Of a DNA stretch of 41,877 nt, positions 9,954 to 23,471 are shown piece by piece; position 1 is the first letter of the stretch, and the number at the start of each line of letters is the position of its first letter. Source of the stretch: Oscillospiraceae bacterium (GTDB lineage Bacteria > Bacillota > Clostridia > Oscillospirales > Oscillospiraceae); NCBI GenBank assembly GCA_017535865.1, contig JAFXTM010000058.1:1-41877 (forward strand), read 5' to 3'. The translations under genes and the position numbers were made by a program. A model generated the notes under the pieces. The model saw nothing but the letters and a program-made list of their open reading frames with translations, was not told where the DNA came from and searched no databases.

Positions 9954-10387
9954 ATGTCCTACACAAACGCCAGAGGTCGCACAGAAAACGGCTTGGGTTC
10001 TATCAGGAAAAAAGAACGAGAAAGAAAGGATGGTTCAGTTTACGAGTATTGGGAAGGGCGCATAACGCTCTTTTATGATCCAAACACAAAACAGCAGATT
10101 ACGAAAACCTTTACAGGCGCGACACGCGAAGAAGTCATTACGAAGATCCGAAGCTGTGGGATTGAGCCTGTCACAGAGGGAAAGCCCGCCTGCGTTTTCA
10201 CGATTTACGTCACCAATACGCTGTTATTGCCATCAAAAACGGGGATGATATAAAAACGATCCAGAGCAACCTTGGGCATGCTACAGCAGCCTTTACTCTG
10301 GACGTCTATGGTCATGTAACCGAGGAGATGAAGAGTGACAGCGCGGATCGGATGGAGAGTTATTTGAAAGCTCTTTCAGAGTTGTAA
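9954..10387 (+). pseudogene. Tyrosine recombinase (phage/ICE integrase) with internal deletion
   Basis: The N-terminal part (9954 to about 10140) reads 'NGLGSIRKKERERKDGSVY' and 'WEGRITLFYDPNTKQQ', typical of the small DNA-binding domain of Tn916-like integrases. Near 10140-10190 the frame changes, and a different frame (from about 10166, H codon at 10199, stop at 10385-10387) encodes the catalytic end: 'RFHDLRHQYAVIAIKNG', 'SNLGHATAAFTLDVYGHVT'. The HxxR, LGH and nucleophile Tyr boxes are therefore present. The whole middle, including the core-binding domain and the first catalytic Arg, is missing. The gene cannot make an active recombinase. It retains its promoter and ribosome site and lies beside tRNA-Val, its probable former target. 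Confidence 0.88.
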
Positions 10388-10664: not shown

Positions 10665-10740
10665 TGGTGGACGATACAAGACTCGAACTTGTGACCTCCC
10701 GCACGTCAAGCGGATGCGCTACCAGCTGCGCCAATCGTCC
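10665..10740 (-). tRNA. tRNA-Val (anticodon GAC)
   Basis: The minus strand folds into a full cloverleaf of 76 nt with encoded CCA: acceptor GGACGAT pairs with ATCGTCC; D-arm GGCGCAGCTGGTAGCGC; anticodon stem TCCGC/GCGGG with loop TTGACGT giving anticodon GAC; T-arm ACAAG-TTCGAGT-CTTGT. GAC reads valine codons GUC and GUU. It has a consensus promoter and its own terminator, so it is a single-gene unit. Its 3' end faces the decayed integrase. Confidence 0.96.
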
Positions 10741-10966: not shown

Positions 10967-10995
10967 TTGACGCAGAGGGGCAAAAAGGCTATAGT
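10967..10995 (+). promoter_or_regulatory. Promoter of the OYE-SDR-AOR operon
   Basis: TTGACG (10967-10972), 17-bp spacer, TATAGT (10990-10995), giving a leader of about 65 nt before the ATG at 11068. A second TATAAT overlaps at 10996-11001 but is too far from the -35. No known riboswitch fold is recognised in the leader. Confidence 0.75.
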
Positions 10996-11067: not shown

Positions 11068-13146
11068 ATGTATGATCTCCTGCTGTCTCCGATGAAGATC
11101 GGCAGCATGACCGTCAAAAACCGCACCGTCATGACGGCGGCGGAATTCAGCCTCGGCCAGACCAACGGCAAGCCCACCGAGCGCCTGATGGACTACTACG
11201 AGGAGCGCGCGAAGGGCGGCGTCGGCATGATCATTCCCGGCATCTGCCGCGTCAACGACATGGGCGGCGCGTCCACCTTCACGCAGCTTGCCATGAGCCA
11301 TGACTACCACATCGATCCCATGCGCGAGTTTGCCGGGCGTATCCACCGCCACGGCGCGAAGCTCTGTATCCAGCTCCACCATCCCGGCCGGCAGGGCATG
11401 GCCAGTGCCATCAACTCCCTGCCCCTCGTCATTCCGGTGTCCGACCGCTTCCCCGGCGTGATGGACTCGATCTTCAAATGCACGCCGCTGCTGCTGGGGA
11501 TGGAGGCCAAGGGCGTCTGCTTCTCGGTGCAGGCGCCGTCGAAGGTCGAGCTCGCCAAGCACGGCGCGACCCGGATGCACGCCATGTCGAAAAGGGAGAT
11601 CCATGCGCTCATCCGGGACTTCATCGAAGCCGCCGTGCGCTGTCAGATGGCGGGCGTCGACTGTGTGGAGCTCCACGCCGGGCACGGGTACATCATCCAG
11701 CAGTTTCTCTCCCCACACACCAACCGCCGCACGGACGAATACGGCGGCAGCTTTGAGAACCGCCTGCGCTTCCTGCGCGAGATCATCGAGGGCATCCGCC
11801 TGCGCTGCGGGCGCGATTATCCGCTGACCGTGCGCCTGACCGCGGACGAGATGTACGACCGCATCGGGCGGCCCGGCGTCGGCTACGATCTGGAGACCGG
11901 CAAGCAGATCGCCAGGCGTCTCGAGGAGCTCACGGTGGACGCCATCAACGTCACCTCCGCCTGCTACGACGCCTACAACTACTGGCTGGAGCCGACCTCG
12001 TTCGAGCCCGGCTGGCGCAAATATCTCGCGCGGGAGATCAAGAGCGTGGTCTCCATCCCCGTCATCGCCGCCAACGTCATCCGCACGCCCGAGCAGGCCG
12101 AGCGGCAGCTCGAGGAGGGCGATCAGGACTTCGTCGCCTCGGCGCGCGCCTTCATCTGCGACCCGCACTGGGTCGAGAAGGCCGCCTCCGGCCGCTCGAA
12201 CGAGATCCGCCGCTGCATCGGCTGCCTCAACTGCATCCGCTCCTTCATGACCAACGCCGGCGTCGGCAAGCCCGGCGAGTGCGCGCTGAACATGAGCGTC
12301 GCGCGGGAGAGGGCCTATTTCAACATGCCGCGCGACGGCGAGGGGCGGGAGATCCTCGTCATCGGGGCGGGCCCCGCGGGCCTCACCGCGGCGCAGACGC
12401 TCGCCATGCGCGGCTTCGACGTGACCGTGTACGAGAAGGCGGAGGAGCCCGGCGGGCAGGTGCTGACCGCCGCGGCCTGCCACCTCAAGGACAAGCTCCT
12501 CTGGTGCATCGAGGACCTGATGACCCAGGCGCGCAAGGCCGGCGCGAAGATCGAGCTCGGCCGGGAGCTGAGCGCGCAGGAGATCGCGGAGCGGGAACCC
12601 TGGGGCGTCGTGGTTGCCACCGGCGGCGAGCCGCTGCGTCCGCGTTCCATCGAGGGCATCGACGGCGATAACGTCTTTACCGCGCCGCAGATCATCCACC
12701 GCGAGACCGTGCTGCGCGACGCCGACGTCGTCGTGGCGGGCTCGGGCCTCACCGGTCTCGAGACGGCGGAGCTCCTGAATCAGACGGGCAACCGCGTCAC
12801 GATCATCGAGATGGCGCAGGAGCTCGCGCCGGGCGCCTGGTTCCAGCTCGTCGACGACGAGATGGAGCGCCTCGTCCCGGCCGGGACACAGATCGCGCTC
12901 GGGACAAAGCTGTGCGCCGTGGACGGCGAAGGCGTCACGGTCGAGGACGTCAAGACCGGGCAGAAGCGCCGGATCCCCGCGGACTACCTGGTGCTCTCGC
13001 TCGGCGTCCGCCCGGCGGGCAACCTCGCCCGCGAGCTCGACAAACGCAGCGTCATGCGCATCTGGCGCGTGGGCGACGCCGTACAGAGCGGCACCATCGC
13101 CGACGCCTGCCACAGCGCTTACGATACCGTCATGGCGATCCGATAG
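11068..13146 (+). CDS. FAD/FMN/[4Fe-4S] Old Yellow Enzyme-type reductase (FadH/BaiCD-like)
   Basis: A 692-residue protein, close to the usual 640-680. The ATG at 11068 begins the conserved 'LLSPMKIGSMTVKNRTVMT' N-terminus; the open frame extends upstream but lies in promoter DNA. Residues 1-370 form the FMN TIM barrel ('ELHAGHGYIIQQFLSP', 'NRRTDEYGGSFENRLRF'). Cys383, 386, 389 and 405 form the iron-sulfur site. Residues from about 430 form the FAD/NAD(P) module (VIGAGPAGLTAA at about 430-441, then 'VVAGSGLTGLETAELL'). The family reduces enone or enoyl C=C bonds; members include 2,4-dienoyl-CoA reductase and the bile-acid enzymes BaiCD/BaiH. It heads a six-gene operon. The substrate is unknown; a hydrophobic unsaturated ketone, ester or acid is inferred. 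Confidence 0.92.
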   Translation: MYDLLLSPMKIGSMTVKNRTVMTAAEFSLGQTNGKPTERLMDYYEERAKGGVGMIIPGICRVNDMGGASTFTQLAMSHDYHIDPMREFAGRIHRHGAKLCIQLHHPGRQGMASAINSLPLVIPVSDRFPGVMDSIFKCTPLLLGMEAKGVCFSVQAPSKVELAKHGATRMHAMSKREIHALIRDFIEAAVRCQMAGVDCVELHAGHGYIIQQFLSPHTNRRTDEYGGSFENRLRFLREIIEGIRLRCGRDYPLTVRLTADEMYDRIGRPGVGYDLETGKQIARRLEELTVDAINVTSACYDAYNYWLEPTSFEPGWRKYLAREIKSVVSIPVIAANVIRTPEQAERQLEEGDQDFVASARAFICDPHWVEKAASGRSNEIRRCIGCLNCIRSFMTNAGVGKPGECALNMSVARERAYFNMPRDGEGREILVIGAGPAGLTAAQTLAMRGFDVTVYEKAEEPGGQVLTAAACHLKDKLLWCIEDLMTQARKAGAKIELGRELSAQEIAEREPWGVVVATGGEPLRPRSIEGIDGDNVFTAPQIIHRETVLRDADVVVAGSGLTGLETAELLNQTGNRVTIIEMAQELAPGAWFQLVDDEMERLVPAGTQIALGTKLCAVDGEGVTVEDVKTGQKRRIPADYLVLSLGVRPAGNLARELDKRSVMRIWRVGDAVQSGTIADACHSAYDTVMAIR

Positions 13147-13177
13147 TACAAAAATGACAGCAGGAGTGTGAAGGACT

Positions 13178-14005
13178 ATGATCAGTCACAAGAACATCAT
13201 CGTCACCGGTGCATCCAGCGGGATCGGAAAATCCATCATCGACGAACTCGTGCAGCAGGAGGGCAACCGCATCCTCGCGGCCTGCCGCCATGCCGACCGC
13301 GTCACGGGCTACGGGGCGAACGTCATCCCCTTCTCCTGCGATCTGAGCACGCAGGACGGGGTGGACGCCCTGTTCGCCCGGGCGGAGGAGCTCTTCGACA
13401 AGGTCGACATCTTCTTCTGCAACGCGGGCGCGCCCTACTACGAGCGCTTCGATTACGAGGACTGGGAGCGGATCGAGCGCATCTACCGCGTCAACACCAT
13501 CTCCCACATCTACGCCTACTCCAAGTACCTCCACCACCTCAACGGCCGGGAGGGCCGCCTGGTCTACACCATCTCCGCCATGGGCGAGATGGCGCTGCCC
13601 GGCTACGCGCTCTACGCCTCCACCAAGTTCGCGATGAAGGGCTTTCAGCAGGCCATCCGCGACGAGACGCCGGAGAACCTGCAGATCAGCTGTGTCTATC
13701 CCGTCTCCACCAAGACCAACTTTTTCCGCGTCGGCGGAGGCGGGCACAAGATGGAGCCGCCCTTCCCCGTGCAGGCGCCGGACAAGGTCGCAAAGGCCGT
13801 GGTCAAGGGCGTGCACAAGCTCAAAGACCACATCTATCCCTGCCCGGTCTATCTGCCGAGCAAATACCTGATGAACATCGTCCCCCCCGTGAAGAAGCTC
13901 TATATCCACGCGCAGAAGGGCAAGCTCCGCCGCTTTGTCAAGCGCCTCGAGCAGGAAGCGGAAGGCGCGGCGGAGGACATCAAGCTCAAACACACGCTTA
14001 AGTAA
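13178..14005 (+). CDS. Short-chain dehydrogenase/reductase (SDR)
   Basis: A 275-residue classical SDR. The cofactor loop TGASSGIG is at 10-17, NAG at 82-84, and the catalytic tetrad Asn106, Ser133, Tyr146 and Lys150 is complete ('YALYASTKFA'). The C-terminal extension (about 215-275) is rich in Lys and Pro ('PSKYLMNIVPPVKKLY') and resembles the membrane-associating tail of 3-ketosphinganine or retinol-type SDRs, hinting at a lipophilic substrate. It lies 31 bp after the OYE gene and 12 bp before the next gene. It likely oxidises or reduces a hydroxyl/keto group of the same substrate handled by the OYE enzyme (inference). Confidence 0.9.
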   Translation: MISHKNIIVTGASSGIGKSIIDELVQQEGNRILAACRHADRVTGYGANVIPFSCDLSTQDGVDALFARAEELFDKVDIFFCNAGAPYYERFDYEDWERIERIYRVNTISHIYAYSKYLHHLNGREGRLVYTISAMGEMALPGYALYASTKFAMKGFQQAIRDETPENLQISCVYPVSTKTNFFRVGGGGHKMEPPFPVQAPDKVAKAVVKGVHKLKDHIYPCPVYLPSKYLMNIVPPVKKLYIHAQKGKLRRFVKRLEQEAEGAAEDIKLKHTLK

Positions 14006-14017
14006 GGAGGAACGACC

Positions 14018-15157
14018 ATGGCAAACATTCACGATATCAGCCGCAACGCCTTCATGCTGCGCGGTCCGCTGGCGAAAAAAGGCTATGACTGGTGGTGGCA
14101 CTCCCTGACGGCGGAGAACGCCGAGACCGGGGAGAAAAAGCCCTTCTACATCGAGTTCTTTGCGTGCAACCCGGCGCTGGCGAAGGACGAGCCCGTCATC
14201 GTCTGGAACGATCCCGAAAAGCAAAAGCGCGGCGTCCTGCCCTCCTATCTGATGGTCAACGTCGGCTTCTGGGGCGAGGACCACGGGCAGCTCCACAACT
14301 TTTACGCCTGGAAGGACGTGAGCATGCATCCCAACGCGCCCTACTCCGTCTCCGCGGGCGGCTGCACCTGCTCGGAGACGCACACCGAGGGCAGCGTCAC
14401 GGTCACGCCGGAGCAGGTGAAGGCGCACCCCGAGTGGATGTGCGACGCCGGCAGCATGAGCTGGCGGCTCGACATCGACAAGCAGATCGCCTTCCATGTC
14501 GGCTACGGCGCGAGCAAGTTCTTCCGCGACGTAAACGCCTTTGAGATGTTCTGGCACGCCGAGGGCATGAAGACGAAATACAGCGGCGAGATCACGCTCA
14601 ACGGCGTGAAGTACGTGGTCCGGCCCGAGACCTGCAACGGCTACGCCGACAAGAACTGGGGCGGCGACTTCACCTCCCCCTGGGTCTGGCTCTCCAGCAA
14701 CGAGCTGCGCAGCCGCATCACCGGCAAAAAGCTCGAGAACTCCGTCTTCAACATCGGCGGCGGCCGGCCGAAGATCGGCCCCGTGGCGCTCGAGCGCAAG
14801 CTGCTGGGCGAGTTCTACTACGAGGGGACGGACTACGAGTTCAACTTTTCCAAGTTCTGGACGCTCTCCGGCACGAAGTTCGACTGCGAGGAGACCGCGG
14901 ACGAGATCCACTGGCACGTCGTGCAGACGACGGCGACCGCGAAGCTCGACACGCAGATCCGCTGCAAAAAGAGCGAGATGCTGCACATCAACTACGAGGC
15001 GCCGACCGGCCTCAAGCGCCACAACCGGCTCTGGAACGGCGGCACCGGAACGGGCGTGCTCAAGCTCTATAAACGCGCGCGCGGCAAATGGGTGCTTATC
15101 GACGAGGTGGAGGCCGTCGGCATCGGCTGTGAATTTGGGGAGTACGACAAGGCATGA
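14018..15157 (+). CDS. Tocopherol-cyclase-like / lipocalin-type protein
   Basis: A 379-residue protein with AAGGAGG before the ATG. The conserved centre 'GYADKNWGGDFTSPWVWL' matches the tocopherol cyclase family hallmark (Y-x-E/D-KNWG-x-x-F-x-x-W-x-W). The sequence is rich in Trp and in beta-strand patterns ('KKGYDWWWHSL', 'MSWRLDIDKQIAFHVGYG'), fitting the double lipocalin barrel of that family, which also resembles CrtC/AttH-type hydratases. Family members act on, or bind, large hydrophobic prenyl or steroid-like molecules. No signal peptide is seen, so it is cytosolic. Its stop overlaps the AOR start by four bases (ATGA). The assignment rests on the motif and general pattern; the reaction is unknown. 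Confidence 0.68.
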   Translation: MANIHDISRNAFMLRGPLAKKGYDWWWHSLTAENAETGEKKPFYIEFFACNPALAKDEPVIVWNDPEKQKRGVLPSYLMVNVGFWGEDHGQLHNFYAWKDVSMHPNAPYSVSAGGCTCSETHTEGSVTVTPEQVKAHPEWMCDAGSMSWRLDIDKQIAFHVGYGASKFFRDVNAFEMFWHAEGMKTKYSGEITLNGVKYVVRPETCNGYADKNWGGDFTSPWVWLSSNELRSRITGKKLENSVFNIGGGRPKIGPVALERKLLGEFYYEGTDYEFNFSKFWTLSGTKFDCEETADEIHWHVVQTTATAKLDTQIRCKKSEMLHINYEAPTGLKRHNRLWNGGTGTGVLKLYKRARGKWVLIDEVEAVGIGCEFGEYDKA

Positions 15158-17136
15158 CATCCTTCACCGGTAAGATCCTGCGCGTGGACCTGGGCACGCG
15201 CAGCGCGGAGGCCCTCAGCGTCCCGCCGGAGGTCTACGAGGCCGTGCTGGCAGGCAAGGGGCTGGAAGCCTGGTATCTCTACACCCATATCCCCGCCGGA
15301 GCGGACCCGCTCGGTCCGGAGAACATCCTCGCCTTCGCGGCCGGCGCGCTCTGCGGCACCGGCGCCTTTCTGACCGGGCGCTGGACGGTCGCCTGCAAAA
15401 GCCCGCTGACCGGCGGCTGGGGCGACGCCAACTGCGGCGGGCTCTTCGCCCCGGCCATCAAGCAGTGTGGCTACGACGCCATCTTCCTCTCGGGGATCGC
15501 GGAGGAGCCGGTCTACCTTTTCTGCGACGGGAAGACCGTGGAGGTACGGGACGCCTCCGCCTATTGGGGCCTGGACGCGACGGAAGCGGAAGCGGCGCTT
15601 CATCGGGATCTTGACGGCGTCTGCCGCAAGAGGCCCTGCATCGCCTGCATCGGCCAGGCCGGGGAGAAGCGCTCGCTCATCTCCGGCATCTGCAACGAGG
15701 GCGGCCGCATCGCCGCACGCAGCGGCGTCGGCGCCGTGATGGGCAGCAAAAAGCTCAAGGCCGTGGTGCTGGCGGGCTCGCTGCCCATGCGCTGCCACGA
15801 CCCCGAAGCCGTCAAGGCGCTCTCGCGGGAGCTGGGCCGCAAGCTTCTGAAAATGACCCTGCCCACAGGGCTCGGCGTCTTCATCGGCGCGGGCGGCAGA
15901 ATGATGGGCCATCTGCCCTATCTGCCGATGGACGGCTCGCTGACGGCTTACATGTTCCGCGAGTGGGGCACCCAGGCGAATACCTCGCTCGCCATCACGA
16001 GCGGAGACGGACCGATACGAAACTGGGGCGGCACGCCGAAGGACGTGCGCCGCATGGACGCGGTCTACAACCCCGAGCACATCAACAAGATCGAGACTGC
16101 CAAGTATCACTGCTATTCCTGTCCGCTCGGCTGCGGCGGCAAGCTCAACATCCGCGGGCGGAAGTACGTCGGATTCGACGAGACGCACAAACCGGAATAC
16201 GAGACCATCGAGGCCTTCGGCCCGCTGCTGATGAACGGGAGCCTGGACTCCATCTACCAGCTCAACGAGCTGCTCAACCGGGCCGGGATGGACACCATCT
16301 CCGCCGGCAACACCGTCGCCTGGGCCATCGAGTGCTTCGAACACGGCATCCTGACGACCGAGCAGACCGACGGGCTGGCGCTGACCTGGGGCAATACGGA
16401 GGCGATCCTCACGCTGGTCAAAAAGATGATCGCGCGCGAGGGCTTCGGCGACGCGCTCGCCGACGGCGTCAAGCGCGCCTCGGAGCGCTTCGGCGGCAGG
16501 GAGTACGCGATGCACATCGGCGGGCAGGAGCCCGGCATGCACGACGCGCGCAACGACCCGCAGCTCGGCGTCCACTTTGTGGCCGAACCCGCGCCGGGCA
16601 AGCATACCGTCGGCATGGGCATCGAATACGGCGCGATGAGTCTCTGCGACATCTGCTCCTGGGCGCCGCCGGCCACGCTGCACCCCAAGGCCCGCGACTT
16701 GGAGGACACGGAGACCATGGCCCTCGTCACCAAGGCCAACGCCTGCTACACCATGCTCGTCGACGGCGCGGGCGGCTGCTATTACGGGCAGATGATGGGC
16801 GTGCACATGTGGAAGCTGGTGGACTACATCAATGCCGCCGAGGGCTGGCACTACGACGGCGACCACTACATGGAGATCGGCGAGCGCATCCAGACCCTGC
16901 GGCAGCTCTTCAACGTCAAGCAGGGCGTCGATCCGGCCTCCTTCAAGCTGCCGAAGCGCATGCTGGGCGAGCCCCCGCTGCCCTCCGGTCCGCTCAAGGG
17001 CGTGACGCTCAGTCAGCACCGCGGGCAGGTGTCCTCACACTGGCGGGCCTTCGGCTGGGACGATCGGACCGGCGTGCCGCTCCCGGAGACGGTGAAAAAG
17101 CTGGGCATCGACAGGCTGACGGAGGTGAGCGTATGA
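15154..17136 (+). CDS. Tungsten-type aldehyde ferredoxin oxidoreductase (AOR family)
   Basis: A 660-residue protein with the AOR order of parts: an N-terminal pterin/iron-sulfur domain ('TGKILRVDLGTRS', 'CKSPLTGGWGDANCGG', 'QCGYDAIFLSG') and the later helical domains. The [4Fe-4S] ligands are visible as Cys320, Cys323 and Cys327 (CYSCPLGC) and a distal Cys542 (GAGGCYYG). The family interconverts aldehydes and carboxylic acids with ferredoxin using a tungsto-bispterin; members acting on other substrates also exist. It is coupled by ATGA overlaps to the genes on both sides. The next genes encode a ferredoxin and a MoaD-like protein, typical AOR partners for electron transfer and pterin cofactor supply. 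The physiological substrate is unknown. Confidence 0.93.
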   Translation: MTSFTGKILRVDLGTRSAEALSVPPEVYEAVLAGKGLEAWYLYTHIPAGADPLGPENILAFAAGALCGTGAFLTGRWTVACKSPLTGGWGDANCGGLFAPAIKQCGYDAIFLSGIAEEPVYLFCDGKTVEVRDASAYWGLDATEAEAALHRDLDGVCRKRPCIACIGQAGEKRSLISGICNEGGRIAARSGVGAVMGSKKLKAVVLAGSLPMRCHDPEAVKALSRELGRKLLKMTLPTGLGVFIGAGGRMMGHLPYLPMDGSLTAYMFREWGTQANTSLAITSGDGPIRNWGGTPKDVRRMDAVYNPEHINKIETAKYHCYSCPLGCGGKLNIRGRKYVGFDETHKPEYETIEAFGPLLMNGSLDSIYQLNELLNRAGMDTISAGNTVAWAIECFEHGILTTEQTDGLALTWGNTEAILTLVKKMIAREGFGDALADGVKRASERFGGREYAMHIGGQEPGMHDARNDPQLGVHFVAEPAPGKHTVGMGIEYGAMSLCDICSWAPPATLHPKARDLEDTETMALVTKANACYTMLVDGAGGCYYGQMMGVHMWKLVDYINAAEGWHYDGDHYMEIGERIQTLRQLFNVKQGVDPASFKLPKRMLGEPPLPSGPLKGVTLSQHRGQVSSHWRAFGWDDRTGVPLPETVKKLGIDRLTEVSV

Positions 17137-17360
17137 CAAAGAAGCATCCGGTCTTCGCGTATTTGCTCTGCGTCAGCTGCGGCATCTGCGCGCAGGCCTG
17201 CCCCGTGTCCGTGCTCGCCATGCGCCGCGAGGGCAAGTCCGGCAAGTACCGCAACGTCTTCCCCGAACTCGTGAAGGAGGGCTGCCTCGGCTGCGGCCAG
17301 TGCGCAAACGCCTGTCCGATGGAGGTCATTCACATGGAGGAGGACGGCGATGCGCGTTAA
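17133..17360 (+). CDS. 2x[4Fe-4S] ferredoxin-like protein
   Basis: A 75-residue protein with two CxxCxxCxxxCP clusters ('CVSCGICAQACP' and 'CLGCGQCANACP'), separated by a basic stretch. Its ATG overlaps the AOR stop (ATGA) and its own stop overlaps the next start by 11 bases. It is the likely electron carrier or small subunit for the AOR. The spacing between clusters is longer than in the smallest clostridial ferredoxins, closer to the polyferredoxin subunits found beside AORs. Confidence 0.93.
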   Translation: MTKKHPVFAYLLCVSCGICAQACPVSVLAMRREGKSGKYRNVFPELVKEGCLGCGQCANACPMEVIHMEEDGDAR

Positions 17361-17583
17361 GATCCTGCCGCCCCACGGCTGCGACCGAAGCGCGCTCGAC
17401 GAGCGCTCCTGGGCCGAGCTCCCGGCGGGGAGCACGGTGCGCGACGCGCTGCGTCTTGTGCGCTGCGGCCCGCTCAAAGCGAAGCTCCTGCTCGTCAGCG
17501 TCAACGGCGAGCGCAGTCCGCTCGACCGCGAGCTGCGAGACGGCGACGTCGTCGGCTTCTTCTTCCCGGTCTCCGGCGGCTGA
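17350..17583 (+). CDS. MoaD/ThiS-like sulfur-carrier protein
   Basis: A 77-residue protein ending in Gly-Gly (FFFPVSGG), the required end for adenylation and thiocarboxylation. 'LPAGSTVRDALRLV' and 'LLLVSVNGE' and 'LRDGDVVGFFFPVSGG' follow the beta-grasp pattern of MoaD. Being the last gene of the AOR operon, it probably supplies sulfur for the dithiolene of the tungsten-pterin cofactor. The ATG lies inside the ferredoxin gene, with GGAGGA just upstream. A 22-bp perfect hairpin terminator starts seven bases past its stop. Confidence 0.88.
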   Translation: MRVKILPPHGCDRSALDERSWAELPAGSTVRDALRLVRCGPLKAKLLLVSVNGERSPLDRELRDGDVVGFFFPVSGG

Positions 17584-17655: not shown

Positions 17656-18840
17656 TCAGAAGAAGGTCGAGATCATGAGGGGCTTGCGATAGAACACGCG
17701 GTCAAAGGGCGCGTCCGGGTGAAAGACCTCTACGCCGTCCATCCAGTCCTTCGCCCCTTCAAAGCCGCACACGCCCGCGATCAGCGCCGAGAAGGCCGGG
17801 ATCGAGAGCGCGGCGTCCGGCTCCCGCTCGCTCCGCTCGACCGAGACGGCGCGGCCGTCGGCAAAGCGGACGGCAAAGACGCCGTCGTTCTGCGGGATCA
17901 GCGCGTCGCGGATGCGCAGACAGAGCGCGCCCTCGCCGCGGTATGCGGCGCGGAGCAGGACCTCCCGCACATTCACGACACGGACCATACCCGCCGGCTC
18001 CAGGGAAAAACGCGCGGCGCCGAGCGACCACTCGTCCAGCAGATAGGGAAGCGCCGGGTCCGAGGGGAGAGAGAACTTCGCGTAGCGGTGGTCGGCGGCG
18101 AGGCTCTTGAACACGCCGAGCAGCGCGTAAAAGCCGGAGCGGTCCGCAAAGCGGAAGCGGCTGCAGACAAGGTTGCGCCCGTCCGGCTCCTGCACGGTGC
18201 GAAACGCGGTATATCCGCGCGGCGCGCCCTGCGCGTCGAAGCAGACGTAGAGGTATTCCTGCGTCGCGAGCGGGTCGAGCTTGTCCAGCCAGTCGTAATC
18301 CGCCTCGCCCCGGATCACCTCCATGTTCCAGCGGCTCTCCCAGGCGCGGTCCACCGCGCGGATCATCTCCCGGAGCGGCTCGTCCTTCCGTGCGAGGCGG
18401 AAGCCGCCCCCGTCCGGGGGCAGGCGCAGCGGCGCAAGCTCCAGCGTGCAGGCAAGCCTTGTGACACAGCTCTCGTAGCCGAAGCGGCGGTAGAAGGCGG
18501 TGGAGAAGGGATAGAGATAGGAGAACGGGACGCCCTCGTCATAGAGCGTCGGGAGCGCCCGGGCAAAGCAGGCGGCGACGCCGCCCCGGTGCCGGTAGGG
18601 CGGGAGCGTGTCGACCGCGCCGACGCCCGCCATCGGGCAGACGCCGCCGTCGAAGCGGATCGAAAAGTACGTGAGCGAGAGCGAGCTCATGAGCTCCCCC
18701 TCCTCCGAGAAGGCGCCCCAATGGCAAATGCGCGCGTCGTCCTCCCCGGCCGGGCCCTTTTCGGGCGAACTCTCAAAGGCGACGGCGAACAGGGCGTTGA
18801 CAGCCGCGCTCTCCGCGGGCAGCGTTTTGCGGACGATCAT
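17656..18840 (-). CDS. Eis-like GNAT N-acetyltransferase with SCP2-type C-terminal domain
   Basis: A 394-residue protein, the usual length of the Eis family. The first GNAT fold shows the acetyl-CoA loop 'VDTLPPYRHRGGVAACF' near 75-90, followed by 'FSYLYPFSTAFYRRFGYE', a hallmark of this family. A second GNAT-like half and an SCP2/sterol-carrier-like end ('LSIPAFSALIAGVCGF') follow. Eis proteins acetylate amines, including aminoglycosides and polyamines or lysines; the substrate here is unknown. The start at 18840 has AAGGAGG and overlaps the DUF624 stop (ATGA), so the two are co-transcribed. Confidence 0.87.
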   Translation of the reverse strand: MIVRKTLPAESAAVNALFAVAFESSPEKGPAGEDDARICHWGAFSEEGELMSSLSLTYFSIRFDGGVCPMAGVGAVDTLPPYRHRGGVAACFARALPTLYDEGVPFSYLYPFSTAFYRRFGYESCVTRLACTLELAPLRLPPDGGGFRLARKDEPLREMIRAVDRAWESRWNMEVIRGEADYDWLDKLDPLATQEYLYVCFDAQGAPRGYTAFRTVQEPDGRNLVCSRFRFADRSGFYALLGVFKSLAADHRYAKFSLPSDPALPYLLDEWSLGAARFSLEPAGMVRVVNVREVLLRAAYRGEGALCLRIRDALIPQNDGVFAVRFADGRAVSVERSEREPDAALSIPAFSALIAGVCGFEGAKDWMDGVEVFHPDAPFDRVFYRKPLMISTFF

Positions 18841-19664: not shown

Positions 19665-22046
19665 ATGCAGTACGGCCATTTTGACAACGCCCGGCGCGAG
19701 TATGTGATCGACCGGGTGGACCTGCCTGTCTCCTGGACGAACTACATCGGCGTGGGCGACATGTACGGCGTGTTCAACCACACGGCCGGCGGCTATCTCA
19801 TCTACAAGAGCTCGGAGTATCACCGCATCACGCGCTTTCGGCCCAACGGCGTGCCGATGGACGGGCCGGGCCACTATATCTACCTGCGCGACGAGGAGGA
19901 CGGCGACTACTGGTCGGTCTCCTGGCAGCCGGTTGGCAAGCCGAAGGAGCATTACCGCTGCCGCCACGGCCTGAGCTATGTGACCTACGAGAGCGATTAC
20001 GGCGGCGTCACCGCGAGCCAGACGCTCTTCGTCGCGATGGACGACCCGGTCGAGATCTGGGATCTGCGCCTGCGCAACGACAGCGGGCGGGAGCGGCGGC
20101 TCTCCGTGTTTTCCTACCTGGAGTTCAGCTTCCACCAGGTCGCCATGGACAACCAGAACTTTCAGATGAGCCTCTATGCCGCCGGCAGCCGCTGCGTCGA
20201 CGGTGTGATCGAGCATGACCTCTACTACGAGCAGGACGGCTATCAGTTCTTCACCTCCGACTTCACGCCCGACGGCTTTGACTGCCTGCGCGACGCCTTC
20301 ATCGGCCCCTACCGGACCGAACGCGATCCGCTGACTGTGGAGAGCGGGACCTGTCGGGGAAGCTTTGAAAAGGGCGGGAATCACTGCGGCTGCCTGAAAA
20401 AGACGCTGGCGCTCGCCCCCGGCGAGGAGGCGCGGCTGCTGTTCCTGCTCGGTGAGGGCGGCGTCGAGGCCGGAAAGGCCATGCGGGCCAAGTACACGGC
20501 CGCACGCGTCGACGAGGATTTCCGCCGCCTCGCGGCTTTCTGGGAGAAAAAGCTCTCCTGCCTGCAGGTCGAGACCCCGAATGCGGGGCTGGACACCGAG
20601 ATCAATATCTGGAACCTCTATCAGAGCGAGATCAATGTGATGTTCTCGCGCTTCACCTCCTTCATCGAAGTCGGCGGACGGGTGGGGCTCGGCTACCGCG
20701 ATACGGCGCAAGACGCCATGATGGTGCCGCACTCCAACCCGGACAAATGCCGCAGCCGCCTTGTGGAGCTGCTGCGCGCGCTGACGAGGGCGGGCTACGG
20801 TCTGCATCTCTTCGAGCCGCGCTGGTTCGACCCCGTGCAGGAAAAGCCGGGCTTCAAGTCCCCCACCGTCGTGCCGATCCCGGACAAGAGCGAGATCGTC
20901 CACGGCATCCGGGACGCCTGCGCGGACGACGCGCTGTGGCTGGTCTCCTCGGTCGTGCAGTACGTGCGGGAGACCGGGGACTTCGGCTTCATCGACGAGA
21001 CGGTCACCTACGCCGACGGCGGCGAGGGTACTGTCTACGAGCACCTGCAGCGGATCCTGGCCTTCTCGGCGCGCGAGGTCGGCGCAAACGGGATCTGCAA
21101 AGGCCTGCGCGCGGACTGGAACGACTGTCTGAACCTGGGCGGCGGCGAGAGCGCGATGGTGAGCTTCCTGCACCTCTGGGCGCTGGGGAACTTCACGGCG
21201 CTGGCCGAACGCCTCGGCCGGAAGGAGGACGCCGCGTGCTGTCGGAAGCTGGCGGAAAAGGTCCGGGAGACCTGCCGTCATGTGCTCTGGGACGGCAGGT
21301 GGTTCATCCGCGGCATCACCGCCGACGGCAGGAAGATCGGCACGCAGCGCGATGAAGAGGGCAGGGTCCATATGGAGTCCAACACCTGGGCGGTGATCTC
21401 CGGCGCGGCCGACCGCGAGCAGGGTCTGGCCGCGATGGACAGCGTCTACGAGTATCTCTTCACCCCCTACGGGCTGATGCTCAACGCGCCCTGCTACACG
21501 AAGGTGGACGACGGGATCGGCTTTGTCACCCGCGTGTACCCCGGCCTCAAGGAGAACGGCGCGATCTTCAGCCACCCGAACCCCTGGGCCTGGGTGGCGG
21601 AGGCCATGCTGGGCCGCGGCGGCCGGGCGATGGAGCTCTACAACGCGCTCTGCCCGGCGCTTCAGAACGACAGGATCGAGATCCGCCAGTCGGAGCCCTA
21701 CAGCTACTGCCAGTTCGTCGTCGGCCGCGACCACACGGCCTTCGGCCGGGCGCGGCACCCCTTCATGACGGGCTCCTCGGGCTGGGCCTACTACGCGGCG
21801 ACGCAGTATCTGCTCGGCGTGCGGCCGGACTTTGACGGGCTGCGCATCGATCCCTGCGTCCCGGCGGACTGGCGGGAGTTCTCCGTCACGCGCGTCTGGC
21901 GCGGCGCGCACTACGAGATCCACGTCCGCAATCCCGAGGGCGTGGAAAAGGGCGTGCGTTCCCTCCGCGCCGACGGGCGTGAGGTGGACGCGCTGCCGAT
22001 CCTCCCACCGGGCAGCGTCTGCCGGGCGGAGGTCATCATGGGCTGA
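19665..22046 (+). CDS. GH94 glycoside phosphorylase, N,N'-diacetylchitobiose phosphorylase-like
   Basis: A 793-residue GH94 enzyme with the full domain order: N-terminal beta-sandwich (1-270, 'YGHFDNARREYVIDRVDLP'), linker helices, (alpha/alpha)6 barrel (about 320-720) and C-terminal jelly roll. The barrel shows 'GYRDTAQDAMMVPHSNP', 'GYGLHLFEPRWFDP' and 'KGLRADWNDCLNLGGGESA', with DWND at 484-487 holding the general-acid Asp. These blocks match chitobiose phosphorylase better than cellobiose phosphorylase (GFRDQLQD). The predicted reaction is (GlcNAc)2 + phosphate to GlcNAc-1-phosphate + GlcNAc, in the cytosol. No signal peptide is present. The phosphohexomutase 15 bp downstream would process the sugar-1-phosphate. 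Exact specificity is not proven. Confidence 0.88.
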   Translation: MQYGHFDNARREYVIDRVDLPVSWTNYIGVGDMYGVFNHTAGGYLIYKSSEYHRITRFRPNGVPMDGPGHYIYLRDEEDGDYWSVSWQPVGKPKEHYRCRHGLSYVTYESDYGGVTASQTLFVAMDDPVEIWDLRLRNDSGRERRLSVFSYLEFSFHQVAMDNQNFQMSLYAAGSRCVDGVIEHDLYYEQDGYQFFTSDFTPDGFDCLRDAFIGPYRTERDPLTVESGTCRGSFEKGGNHCGCLKKTLALAPGEEARLLFLLGEGGVEAGKAMRAKYTAARVDEDFRRLAAFWEKKLSCLQVETPNAGLDTEINIWNLYQSEINVMFSRFTSFIEVGGRVGLGYRDTAQDAMMVPHSNPDKCRSRLVELLRALTRAGYGLHLFEPRWFDPVQEKPGFKSPTVVPIPDKSEIVHGIRDACADDALWLVSSVVQYVRETGDFGFIDETVTYADGGEGTVYEHLQRILAFSAREVGANGICKGLRADWNDCLNLGGGESAMVSFLHLWALGNFTALAERLGRKEDAACCRKLAEKVRETCRHVLWDGRWFIRGITADGRKIGTQRDEEGRVHMESNTWAVISGAADREQGLAAMDSVYEYLFTPYGLMLNAPCYTKVDDGIGFVTRVYPGLKENGAIFSHPNPWAWVAEAMLGRGGRAMELYNALCPALQNDRIEIRQSEPYSYCQFVVGRDHTAFGRARHPFMTGSSGWAYYAATQYLLGVRPDFDGLRIDPCVPADWREFSVTRVWRGAHYEIHVRNPEGVEKGVRSLRADGREVDALPILPPGSVCRAEVIMG

Positions 22047-22061
22047 ACAGGAGGCGGAAAC

Positions 22062-23471
22062 ATGATCAAATTCGGGACCGGCGGCTGGCGCGCCGTCATT
22101 GCGGAGGACTTCACCAAGGCGAACCTCCGCCTGCTGACGGCGGGGCTTTGCCGTCTGATGGAAAAAGAGGGCCATGCCGGCGCGGAGATCTGCGTGGGCT
22201 ACGACCGGCGCTTTCTCTCCAAGGAGTCGGCGCACTGGATCGCCGAGGTGCTGGCGGGGTACGGCTATCGCACGCTGATGATCAACCGCTCCTCCCCCAC
22301 CCCGCTCATCATGTACGTCGTCAAGACCCGGGAGATGCCCTGCGGCATGATGGTCACTGCCAGCCACAACCCCGCGATCTACAACGGCGTGAAGGTCTTC
22401 ACCGCCGGCGGACGGGACGCGGATCTCACGGTCACGGCGAAGATCGAGGCGGAGATCGCCGCGATCGATCCGGCGAAGATCCCGAGCATCCCCTACGAGC
22501 AGGCGCTGCAGCGCGGTCTTATCCGGGAGGACAACCCCGCGAACGATTATATCGACAGCATCCTCGCGCTGATCGACGCCGAGGCGATCAAGCGGGCGCG
22601 GCTGCGCATCGCGCTCGACCCGATGTACGGCGTCAGCCAGACCTGCCTGCGCACGATCCTGATGACCTGCCGCTGCGACGTGGAGGTCATCCACGACCGC
22701 CACGACACGCTCTTTGGCGGCAAGCTGCCCGCCCCGAACGCCGCCACGCTGATCCCGCTGTCGAACTTCGTGCTCGACCGGGGCTGCGACCTCGGCGTGG
22801 CCACGGACGGCGACGCCGACCGGCTCGGCGTGATCGACGAGCGCGGCGGCTTCATCCACCCCAACACCCTGCTGGTGCTGCTGTATTATTATCTGGTCAA
22901 ATACCGCGGCTGGGAGGGCCCCTGCGTGCGCAACAACTCCACCACCCACCTGCTCGACCGGGTCGCCGAAGGCCTGGGGCAGCGATGCTACGAGGTGCCG
23001 GTCGGCTTCAAATATGTCTCGGCGAAGATGGCCGAGACCGACGCCGTCATCGGCGGCGAGAGCTCCGGCGGCATGGCCGTGCGCGGCCACATCTCCGGCA
23101 AAGACGGCATCTACGCCGCGGCGCTGCTGACCGAGATGCTGGCCGTTACGGGCAAGTCGCTCTCGGCACTCTACCGGGAGATCACGGAGCAGTACGGCGA
23201 GCTCTGCTACCGCGAGGCGGATTTCCGCATGACGCCGGAGCGCAAGGCGGAGCTGCAGAAACAGCTGTTCGGGGACGGGCTCCTGCCCGCCTTTGAGGGG
23301 ATCGAGCGCGTCAGCCGCGAGGACGGCGTCAAGTGCTGGTTCCGGAACGGCGGCTGGGTGATCTGCCGCTTCTCCGGCACGGAGCCGCTGCTGCGCATGG
23401 CGGCGGAGGCGGAGAGCGCGGAGCAGGCGGAGGAATCGATCCGCCGCTGGAGAGAGCTTCTCTCCCTGTAA
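22062..23471 (+). CDS. Alpha-D-phosphohexomutase (PGM/PMM/phosphoacetylglucosamine mutase superfamily)
   Basis: A 469-residue protein with all four superfamily motifs: TASHNP with phosphoserine Ser101, metal loop DGDADR (249-254), sugar loop GGESSGG (331-337) and phosphate loop RFSGTEP (436-442). AGGAGG precedes the ATG. It moves phosphate between C1 and C6 of a hexose. Coupled to the GH94 gene, it most likely converts the released GlcNAc-1-phosphate (or Glc-1-phosphate) to the 6-phosphate for catabolism. The motif GGESSGG does not by itself decide between glucose, mannose and GlcNAc. Confidence 0.92.
   Translation: MIKFGTGGWRAVIAEDFTKANLRLLTAGLCRLMEKEGHAGAEICVGYDRRFLSKESAHWIAEVLAGYGYRTLMINRSSPTPLIMYVVKTREMPCGMMVTASHNPAIYNGVKVFTAGGRDADLTVTAKIEAEIAAIDPAKIPSIPYEQALQRGLIREDNPANDYIDSILALIDAEAIKRARLRIALDPMYGVSQTCLRTILMTCRCDVEVIHDRHDTLFGGKLPAPNAATLIPLSNFVLDRGCDLGVATDGDADRLGVIDERGGFIHPNTLLVLLYYYLVKYRGWEGPCVRNNSTTHLLDRVAEGLGQRCYEVPVGFKYVSAKMAETDAVIGGESSGGMAVRGHISGKDGIYAAALLTEMLAVTGKSLSALYREITEQYGELCYREADFRMTPERKAELQKQLFGDGLLPAFEGIERVSREDGVKCWFRNGGWVICRFSGTEPLLRMAAEAESAEQAEESIRRWRELLSL

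Follow-up and report, generated by a model that had tools for sequence, protein, structure and literature searches.

A conserved and modular six-gene operon of gut Clostridia that combines a tungsten-type aldehyde oxidoreductase with a tocopherol-cyclase-like protein

Introduction

In only five of the 92 clades of tungsten oxidoreductases (WORs) has the physiological role of any member been defined (PMC13328260; here and throughout, published work is cited from excerpts of the papers). The subject of this article is an aldehyde oxidoreductase of this type (AOR) encoded in a six-gene operon at positions 11068-17583 of contig JAFXTM010000058.1 (assembly GCA_017535865.1), from an Oscillospiraceae bacterium. 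The whole 41,877-nucleotide stretch that was analysed is referred to below as the window. Besides the AOR, the operon encodes an OYE/FadH-type flavoenzyme (OYE), a short-chain dehydrogenase/reductase (SDR), a tocopherol-cyclase-like protein (TCL), a ferredoxin and a ThiS/MoaD-like protein. Judged from sequence comparisons and a structure model, this is a real, conserved and modular operon of known enzyme families, whose combination was not found described and whose possible function can be narrowed. Among the matches listed from the open-licence PubMed Central literature, the six-gene set is not described in titles or abstracts, and no open-licence paper there was found to pair an AOR with tocopherol cyclase.

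Closest described systems

The systems closest to the AOR portion of the operon are the Class I WORs with WorX, exemplified by PfAOR and CsWOR87 (PMC13328260). They share with the window's AOR a single large AFOR_N/AFOR_C subunit, a ThiS-like neighbour, a ferredoxin as likely partner, and most of the second-shell residues of aldehyde oxidoreductases. The window's AOR differs in carrying a histidine in place of Tyr427, in having a dedicated small ferredoxin gene, and in sharing its operon with the genes for OYE, SDR and TCL, a gene set not found in the excerpts of PMC13328260. In turn, the functional outline of hydratase, SDR and enone reductase is that of CLA-HY, CLA-DH and CLA-ER of Lactobacillus plantarum (PMC13365329). 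However, TCL matches only the Pfam family PF14249, with no kinship shown to the FAD-containing oleate hydratases, the window's reductase is of the OYE/FadH type, and aldehyde enzymes are present in the window.

The OYE/FadH domain plan itself is common to OYE, the bile-acid enzyme BaiCD and 2-naphthoyl-CoA reductase (6qkg). The predicted fold of TCL is that of kievitone hydratase, 25-phosphosteroid lyase and AttH and, by way of PF14249, of tocopherol cyclase. The conversion of phytol to phytanic acid in the rumen requires the same kinds of steps that the operon could supply, namely alkene reduction and alcohol or aldehyde oxidation (PMC7551613, PMC8495353). The excerpts of these two papers name no bacterial genes for the conversion, and its link to the operon is put forward here as a hypothesis.

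The six-gene operon

An earlier note, made from the sequence alone, had described a six-gene operon with one promoter, tight gene spacing and a strong terminator. This description stands: all six open reading frames (ORFs) lie on the plus strand, bounded by the two signals listed with them.

10967-10995, +, promoter: TTGACG (10967-10972), 17-base spacer, TATAGT (10990-10995); from the sequence and an alignment of upstream regions
11068-13146, +, OYE/FadH-type flavoenzyme (Oxidored_FMN plus pyridine-nucleotide oxidoreductase domain); ORF, Pfam, NCBIfam and PDB matches, 61-row alignment
13178-14005, +, SDR; ORF, Pfam, PDB matches
14018-15157, +, TCL, predicted AttH/kievitone-hydratase-type fold; Pfam, structure model
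15154-17136, +, AOR-family (tungsten-type) aldehyde oxidoreductase, single large subunit; Pfam, PDB and residue alignments
17133-17360, +, 2[4Fe-4S] ferredoxin, 75 residues, 8 Cys; ORF, Pfam
17350-17583, +, ThiS/MoaD-like protein with C-terminal GG; Pfam, compare WorX (PMC13328260)
17590-17638, strand not assigned, intrinsic terminator, 23-bp stem, probably two-way; perfect stem, -48.9 kcal/mol

The genes are separated by gaps of 31 and 12 bases and then overlap by 4, 4 and 11 bases. Pfam cut-offs are exceeded for OYE (Oxidored_FMN and Pyr_redox_2), SDR (adh_short), AOR (AFOR_N and AFOR_C), the ferredoxin (Fer4) and the ThiS-like protein (ThiS). The sigma-70-like promoter leaves a footprint: when the upstream region of the window is aligned with those of eight hand-picked loci, TTGACG-N17-TATAGT is identical in all nine and supplies the only longer runs of invariant columns, with diverging flanks on both sides. 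At the other end, the perfect stem of the terminator is palindromic, and since the gene beyond it is convergent with the operon, both may use it as terminator.

Distribution and modularity

A scan for TCL gave at least 590 confirmed relatives, from which the best 80 loci were kept as a selected top set rather than a survey; records very near the window's genome may be missing from this search. Of these 80 loci, 27 hold all six genes on a single strand and in the same order as the window (18 with gaps below 300 bases and nine with insertions). The arrangement is therefore not a product of chance, nor is it unique to one genome, the finding by which the earlier note would have been refuted. In several of the nine insertion loci the added genes include one for an Fe-alcohol dehydrogenase, one for an amidohydrolase or a pair of double-cubane-reductase-like genes. 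This HGD-D gene pair accompanies the operon in loci with the titles Mogibacterium or uncultured Clostridiales: L030 (1950-4687), L031, L032, L034 and L050, as well as L025 and L029, where it sits between the ferredoxin and ThiS genes, and L057, with a fragment; one HGD-D gene scores 118 bits against the double-cubane anaerobic reductase model (cut-off 350). The titles of 69 of the 80 loci name goat, sheep, buffalo, horse, rumen, Butyrivibrio or the RUG/RUI series, the last of which we take to be rumen sets, and the other 11 are unclear.

The neighbours of TCL were counted over 121 loci, comprising the 80 loci, 40 additional stretches and the window. Short contigs were kept, some of which end near TCL, and one contig is counted twice (as L003 and L111).

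none: 47/121 loci
OYE+SDR, with no AOR, ALDH (aldehyde dehydrogenase) or FeADH (Fe-alcohol dehydrogenase) nearby, some on short contigs: 28/121
OYE+SDR+AOR: 25/121
OYE+SDR+AOR+FeADH: 5/121
OYE+SDR+ALDH: 4/121
ALDH only: 4/121
SDR only: 3/121
OYE+SDR+FeADH: 2/121
AOR+FeADH: 1/121
SDR+AOR: 1/121
AOR only: 1/121

From these counts, the core of the set is TCL-SDR-OYE, in either gene order, and the set is modular. The core proteins and the AOR are also co-inherited: pairwise protein distances correlate strongly between TCL and OYE (Mantel r 0.90, 60 loci), TCL and SDR (0.82, 65 loci) and TCL and AOR (0.95, 31 loci), with none of 299 permutations reaching the observed r. The earlier note's claim that the six proteins act together holds only in part. 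A conserved operon with one promoter is indeed found in Clostridia, but many relatives lack the AOR-ferredoxin-ThiS part or have something else in its place, and TCL often stands alone. The prevalence of TCL rises from 6 of 398 genomes in a sample of the phylum (the window's own included, and two of them weak) to 30 of 300 in a sample of the window's family and 27 of 79 in the genus of Butyrivibrio sp. MC2021. The core together with ALDH is present in Butyrivibrio sp. MC2021, VCB2006 and AE3009.

The aldehyde oxidoreductase and its putative cofactor genes

The AOR matches both Pfam domains of its family (227.1 bits for AFOR_N and 312.8 for AFOR_C, both above cut-off), and residues of its predicted active site are conserved. 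The putative cluster ligands C320, C323, C327 and C542 align with cysteines of 1AOR and are invariant in 31 of 31 orthologs. So are E350 and H484, equivalent to PfAOR Glu313 and His448 in the alignment to 1AOR, and T273, the probable equivalent of Thr243 by transfer through the 1b25 alignment. At the position of Tyr427, the AOR has H463, a histidine in all 31 orthologs; the same change is reported for the AOR of C. formicoaceticum (PMC12096430). Three of the four second-shell residues of aldehyde oxidoreductases are thus kept, counting the inferred Thr243 equivalent. Because these residues are kept here and absent from BamB (PMC12096430), the sequence favours aldehyde/acid chemistry over a BamB-like reduction of rings or alkenes. 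That the metal is tungsten is our inference from the family.

A Class II arrangement (WorL plus WorS) was considered for the AOR and ferredoxin and rejected: the Class II small subunit carries four [4Fe-4S] clusters (PMC13328260), and the window's ferredoxin is too short, its eight cysteines in 75 residues corresponding to two. The ThiS-like protein fits WorX of PMC13328260 and probably serves the metal-pterin cofactor. In line with such a role, a ThiF-like gene is present in 11 of the 33 loci with AOR versus 2 of the 88 without; within the stretches covered, it was not seen in the other 22 AOR loci. Eight of the 11 have it upstream in divergent orientation, two just downstream and one further off.

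L002, L004, L008, L009, L010, L014, L021 and L026, -, divergent ThiF-like gene upstream of OYE

A minus-strand promoter, TTGACG-N18-TATAAT, points away from the operon promoter in five of six relatives checked; it is also seen in L003 and L018, where other genes occupy the ThiF-like position. The window's own genome contains a MoaA domain (PF06463), the only cofactor or transporter gene sought there.

Exchange of the aldehyde oxidoreductase for an aldehyde dehydrogenase

In four Butyrivibrio loci (L049, L052, L055 and L059) an ALDH directly follows TCL, at the position held by AOR in the window; among the matches listed, the PDB relatives of this ALDH include fatty aldehyde dehydrogenase (4qgk) and class-3 ALDH (1ad3). 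The two enzymes also avoid each other across genomes: of the 26 searched for both, 16 have an AOR ortholog, eight an ALDH ortholog (62-100% identity), none both and two neither (a 37%-identity ALDH in one AOR genome was not counted as an ortholog), an exclusion with a Fisher P of 2.9e-5 that ignores kinship. In a 31-row tree of TCL, a single clade of ALDH rows is rejected (approximately unbiased test, p 0.00024), and so is a single clade of AOR rows; since neither group forms one clade, AOR and ALDH seem to have been exchanged repeatedly. Variation extends into the window's own clade. Of its AOR-less loci, L017 and L019 belong to genomes with ALDH, ALDH was not found in the genome of L020, whose locus ends soon after TCL, and L003 has an Fe-alcohol dehydrogenase at the AOR position. 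Together with the conserved active site, this exchange supports an aldehyde-level role for the AOR, as the earlier note had supposed. An exchange of AOR for ALDH at one and the same position is a natural hint at the role of a WOR in its pathway.

The tocopherol-cyclase-like protein

TCL scores 24.9 bits against Tocopherol_cycl (PF14249), just under the gathering cut-off of 26.6, and matches no other Pfam family. The match is shared by its relatives, with PF14249 hit by 35 of 35 aligned members at E<=1e-3; of three scored individually, one stays below the cut-off (L013, 25.3 bits) and two exceed it (L065, 31.7; L084, 41.6). An AlphaFold2 model (mean pLDDT 85.5, pTM 0.87) has 14 PDB matches at E<=1e-3, every one of them AttH, kievitone hydratase, Fsa2 and other pericyclases, or 25-phosphosteroid lyase; after these, at 4e-3, comes an autotransporter barrel. 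Addition of water or a hydroxyl to a trisubstituted prenyl double bond is the chemistry of kievitone hydratase, the carotenoid hydratase CrtC and tocopherol cyclase. The resemblance, though modest in its scores, points to an isoprenoid-type substrate for TCL. The tie to enzymes of hydrophobic compounds proposed in the earlier note is thereby upheld at the level of predicted fold.

Some further observations concern TCL away from the operon. An EamA-type transporter, recognised by eye, adjoins some stand-alone TCL genes (L107, L109, L142, L143 and L148), and in 39 stand-alone loci inspected (19 plus 20 more) no common partner was found. A search of TCL against plasmids gave no match. Two TCL relatives contain one in-frame TGA each (G451 contig 46 and G603 contig 50).

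The flavoenzyme and the short-chain dehydrogenase

OYE carries a conserved C-x2-C-x2-C...C motif in the 61-row alignment, which is read as a [4Fe-4S] site, and its best PDB match is 6qkg. It was compared with three NCBIfam equivalog models and stays below the cut-off of each. It falls well short for bile-acid BaiCD (386 bits, cut-off 825), an identity rejected on that ground, and for mycofactocin OYE (421, cut-off 793); for bilirubin reductase it scores 363.5 (cut-off 750). The operon differs from the bile-acid system also in that no bai model is among the families listed for its other five genes. SDR has no PDB relative at 1e-18 and seven weak ones at 1e-12, the second of which is 17-beta-HSD XI (E 1.2e-14).

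A possible pathway and its alternatives

Among the substrate classes raised in the earlier note (lipid, steroid, terpenoid or polyphenol), the data lean to an isoprenoid lipid, and we tentatively propose, with clearly less than even confidence, that the operon encodes an anaerobic route from an isoprenoid-type unsaturated alcohol or aldehyde of the herbivore diet to a saturated carboxylic acid. In such a route, TCL would act on an isoprenoid double bond by adding, removing or shifting a proton or water, as its predicted fold suggests; SDR, by its family, would then oxidise the allylic alcohol to an enal or enone. OYE, by its family and conserved motifs, would reduce the activated C=C bond, with electrons passing from NAD(P)H through FAD, [4Fe-4S] and FMN. 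Given the active-site residues and the exchange with a class-3-like ALDH in relatives, AOR would finally oxidise the saturated aldehyde to the acid and pass low-potential electrons to the neighbouring ferredoxin, a step for which ALDH, delivering electrons to NAD(P), may substitute in relatives. The metal-pterin cofactor would be served by the ThiS-like protein, joined in some relatives by a ThiF-like enzyme encoded nearby. The leading candidate substrate, held more tentatively than the route itself, is phytol, the side chain of chlorophyll, with phytanic acid as product. Phytol fits the second to fourth of these steps, and its ruminal conversion runs through phytanal (PMC7551613). Of the anaerobic pathway sketched in the earlier note, the conserved operon, the Clostridia hosts, the promoter, the fold of TCL and the aldehyde role of AOR stand, whereas the notion that all six proteins always act together does not.

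A considerable body of observations weighs against this proposal. The fold matches of TCL are remote (TM 0.41-0.48, 9-13% identity, root-mean-square deviation 8-11 A) and include steroid-acting enzymes, and some of the matched enzymes act on polyketides. OYE chemistry needs prior oxidation of the substrate. Phytol is reduced to dihydrophytol first (PMC7551613). No phytyl-releasing enzyme is among the operon genes, and a phytol pathway does not explain TCL alone in 47 of 121 loci. Nor do the counts bear out a general rule for the aldehyde oxidiser. The branch with the other gene order was represented by 22 genomes (19 with the core, L042 with TCL and SDR, and L033 and L061, where the locus holds only TCL). 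A search for ALDH in these gave a single positive, one of the 19 core-only genomes; AOR, sought in four of those 19, gave one 34% partial match only. A general link between TCL and ALDH in the window's family was rejected, with ALDH in 1 of 30 TCL genomes versus 10 of 270 others (counts from two 300-genome draws, taken as the same because their listed members agree). Conversely, L041 and L044 keep TCL and ALDH, yet the best OYE matches in their genomes reach just 30% and 34% identity; OYE is thus dispensable in some cases.

Several alternatives account for parts of the same evidence. Saturation of polyunsaturated fatty acids, as in ruminal biohydrogenation, is unlikely in our estimate; by analogy, TCL would here be a hydratase or isomerase, SDR would form the oxo acid, OYE would reduce the enone, and AOR-ferredoxin would supply electrons. 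It explains stand-alone TCL genes, as stand-alone hydratases, better than an isoprenoid substrate does, the core is present in some Butyrivibrio, and tocopherolquinols are reportedly electron donors for biohydrogenation in Butyrivibrio (Hughes and Tove), although no paper pairing the word with that genus was found in the open-licence literature. The TCL-SDR-OYE core is, moreover, a functional look-alike of CLA-HY/CLA-DH/CLA-ER (PMC13365329), and would fill a published gap, as a genome study saw no linoleate isomerase gene in B. fibrisolvens INBov1, nor in the further Butyrivibrio species that it covered (PMC6249431). However, 27 of 79 genomes in the MC2021 genus are few for a general Butyrivibrio trait, a count that also weakens the candidacy of TCL as the universal linoleate isomerase of Butyrivibrio. 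The ALDH, Fe-alcohol dehydrogenase and AOR beside TCL have no place in such chemistry, and no fold match of TCL is titled as a fatty-acid enzyme (the titles give no function for AttH). Somewhat more unlikely is a role in oxidising or detoxifying aldehydes, fatty or otherwise, such as those arising from plasmalogens or lipid peroxidation, in which OYE would reduce 2-enals and TCL would free an aldehyde from a vinyl ether or similar. TCL and ALDH do occur with no OYE or SDR nearby in L041, L044, L134 and L135, and in the MC2021 genus ALDH is found in 16 of 27 TCL genomes versus 5 of the 32 TCL-free genomes searched, which come first in handle order among 52 (Fisher 0.0009, ignoring kinship). The apparent role of characterised Class I WORs in aldehyde oxidation (PMC13328260) would suit it as well. 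Against this, the association is lacking in the window's own family, and a specific SDR and a conserved core are unexpected for broad detoxification.

More unlikely still is a pathway acting on a steroid, sterol, bile acid or triterpenoid, with SDR as hydroxysteroid dehydrogenase, OYE as BaiCD-like enone reductase and TCL acting on a side chain or ring. Each of the three has a match pointing that way (the BaiCD and mycofactocin OYE models, 17-beta-HSD XI and 25-phosphosteroid lyase, respectively), but OYE falls far under the equivalog cut-offs, bai models are missing among the families listed for the other five genes, and an aldehyde/acid step is atypical of ring chemistry. Finally, AOR could work like BamB, of class II benzoyl-CoA reductase, and itself reduce a non-activated double bond. 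BamB (4z3w) is among its PDB relatives, and double-cubane-reductase-like genes neighbour the operon in seven loci, with a fragment in an eighth. This is highly improbable, and was rejected because all 31 orthologs retain Glu313, His448 and, in all probability, Thr243, residues that BamB lacks (PMC12096430), and because of the exchange of AOR for an aldehyde dehydrogenase.

Across the phytol and fatty-acid readings, one broader claim can be made, which we regard as rather doubtful: that TCL-SDR-OYE with an exchangeable aldehyde oxidiser, either a tungsten-type AOR or a class-3-like ALDH, may be the hitherto unassigned gene set for ruminal saturation of a major plant lipid. This would be either the formation of phytanic acid from phytol or a new route of biohydrogenation used by Butyrivibrio and further gut Clostridia; TCL would then be a new anaerobic hydratase or isomerase acting on an isoprenoid or fatty chain. 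In either case, a gene set that is co-inherited in gut Clostridia, including Butyrivibrio, offers a concrete lead for phytanic acid formation and biohydrogenation.

Neighbouring genes

Just upstream of the operon, a 99-residue ORF (9954-10253, +) resembles by eye the N-terminal part of a tyrosine integrase, with no Pfam match at 1e-5, and lies beside a tRNA-Val gene (10665-10740, -); the two could mark the edge of an island. Across the palindromic terminator, the operon is faced by a convergent gene for a GNAT acetyltransferase with an SCP2-like domain (Acetyltransf_9, SCP2_2; 17656-18840, -). Further downstream, at 19665-23471 (+), the window holds a GH94 phosphorylase-type gene and, after it, a phosphoglucomutase/phosphomannomutase-type gene.

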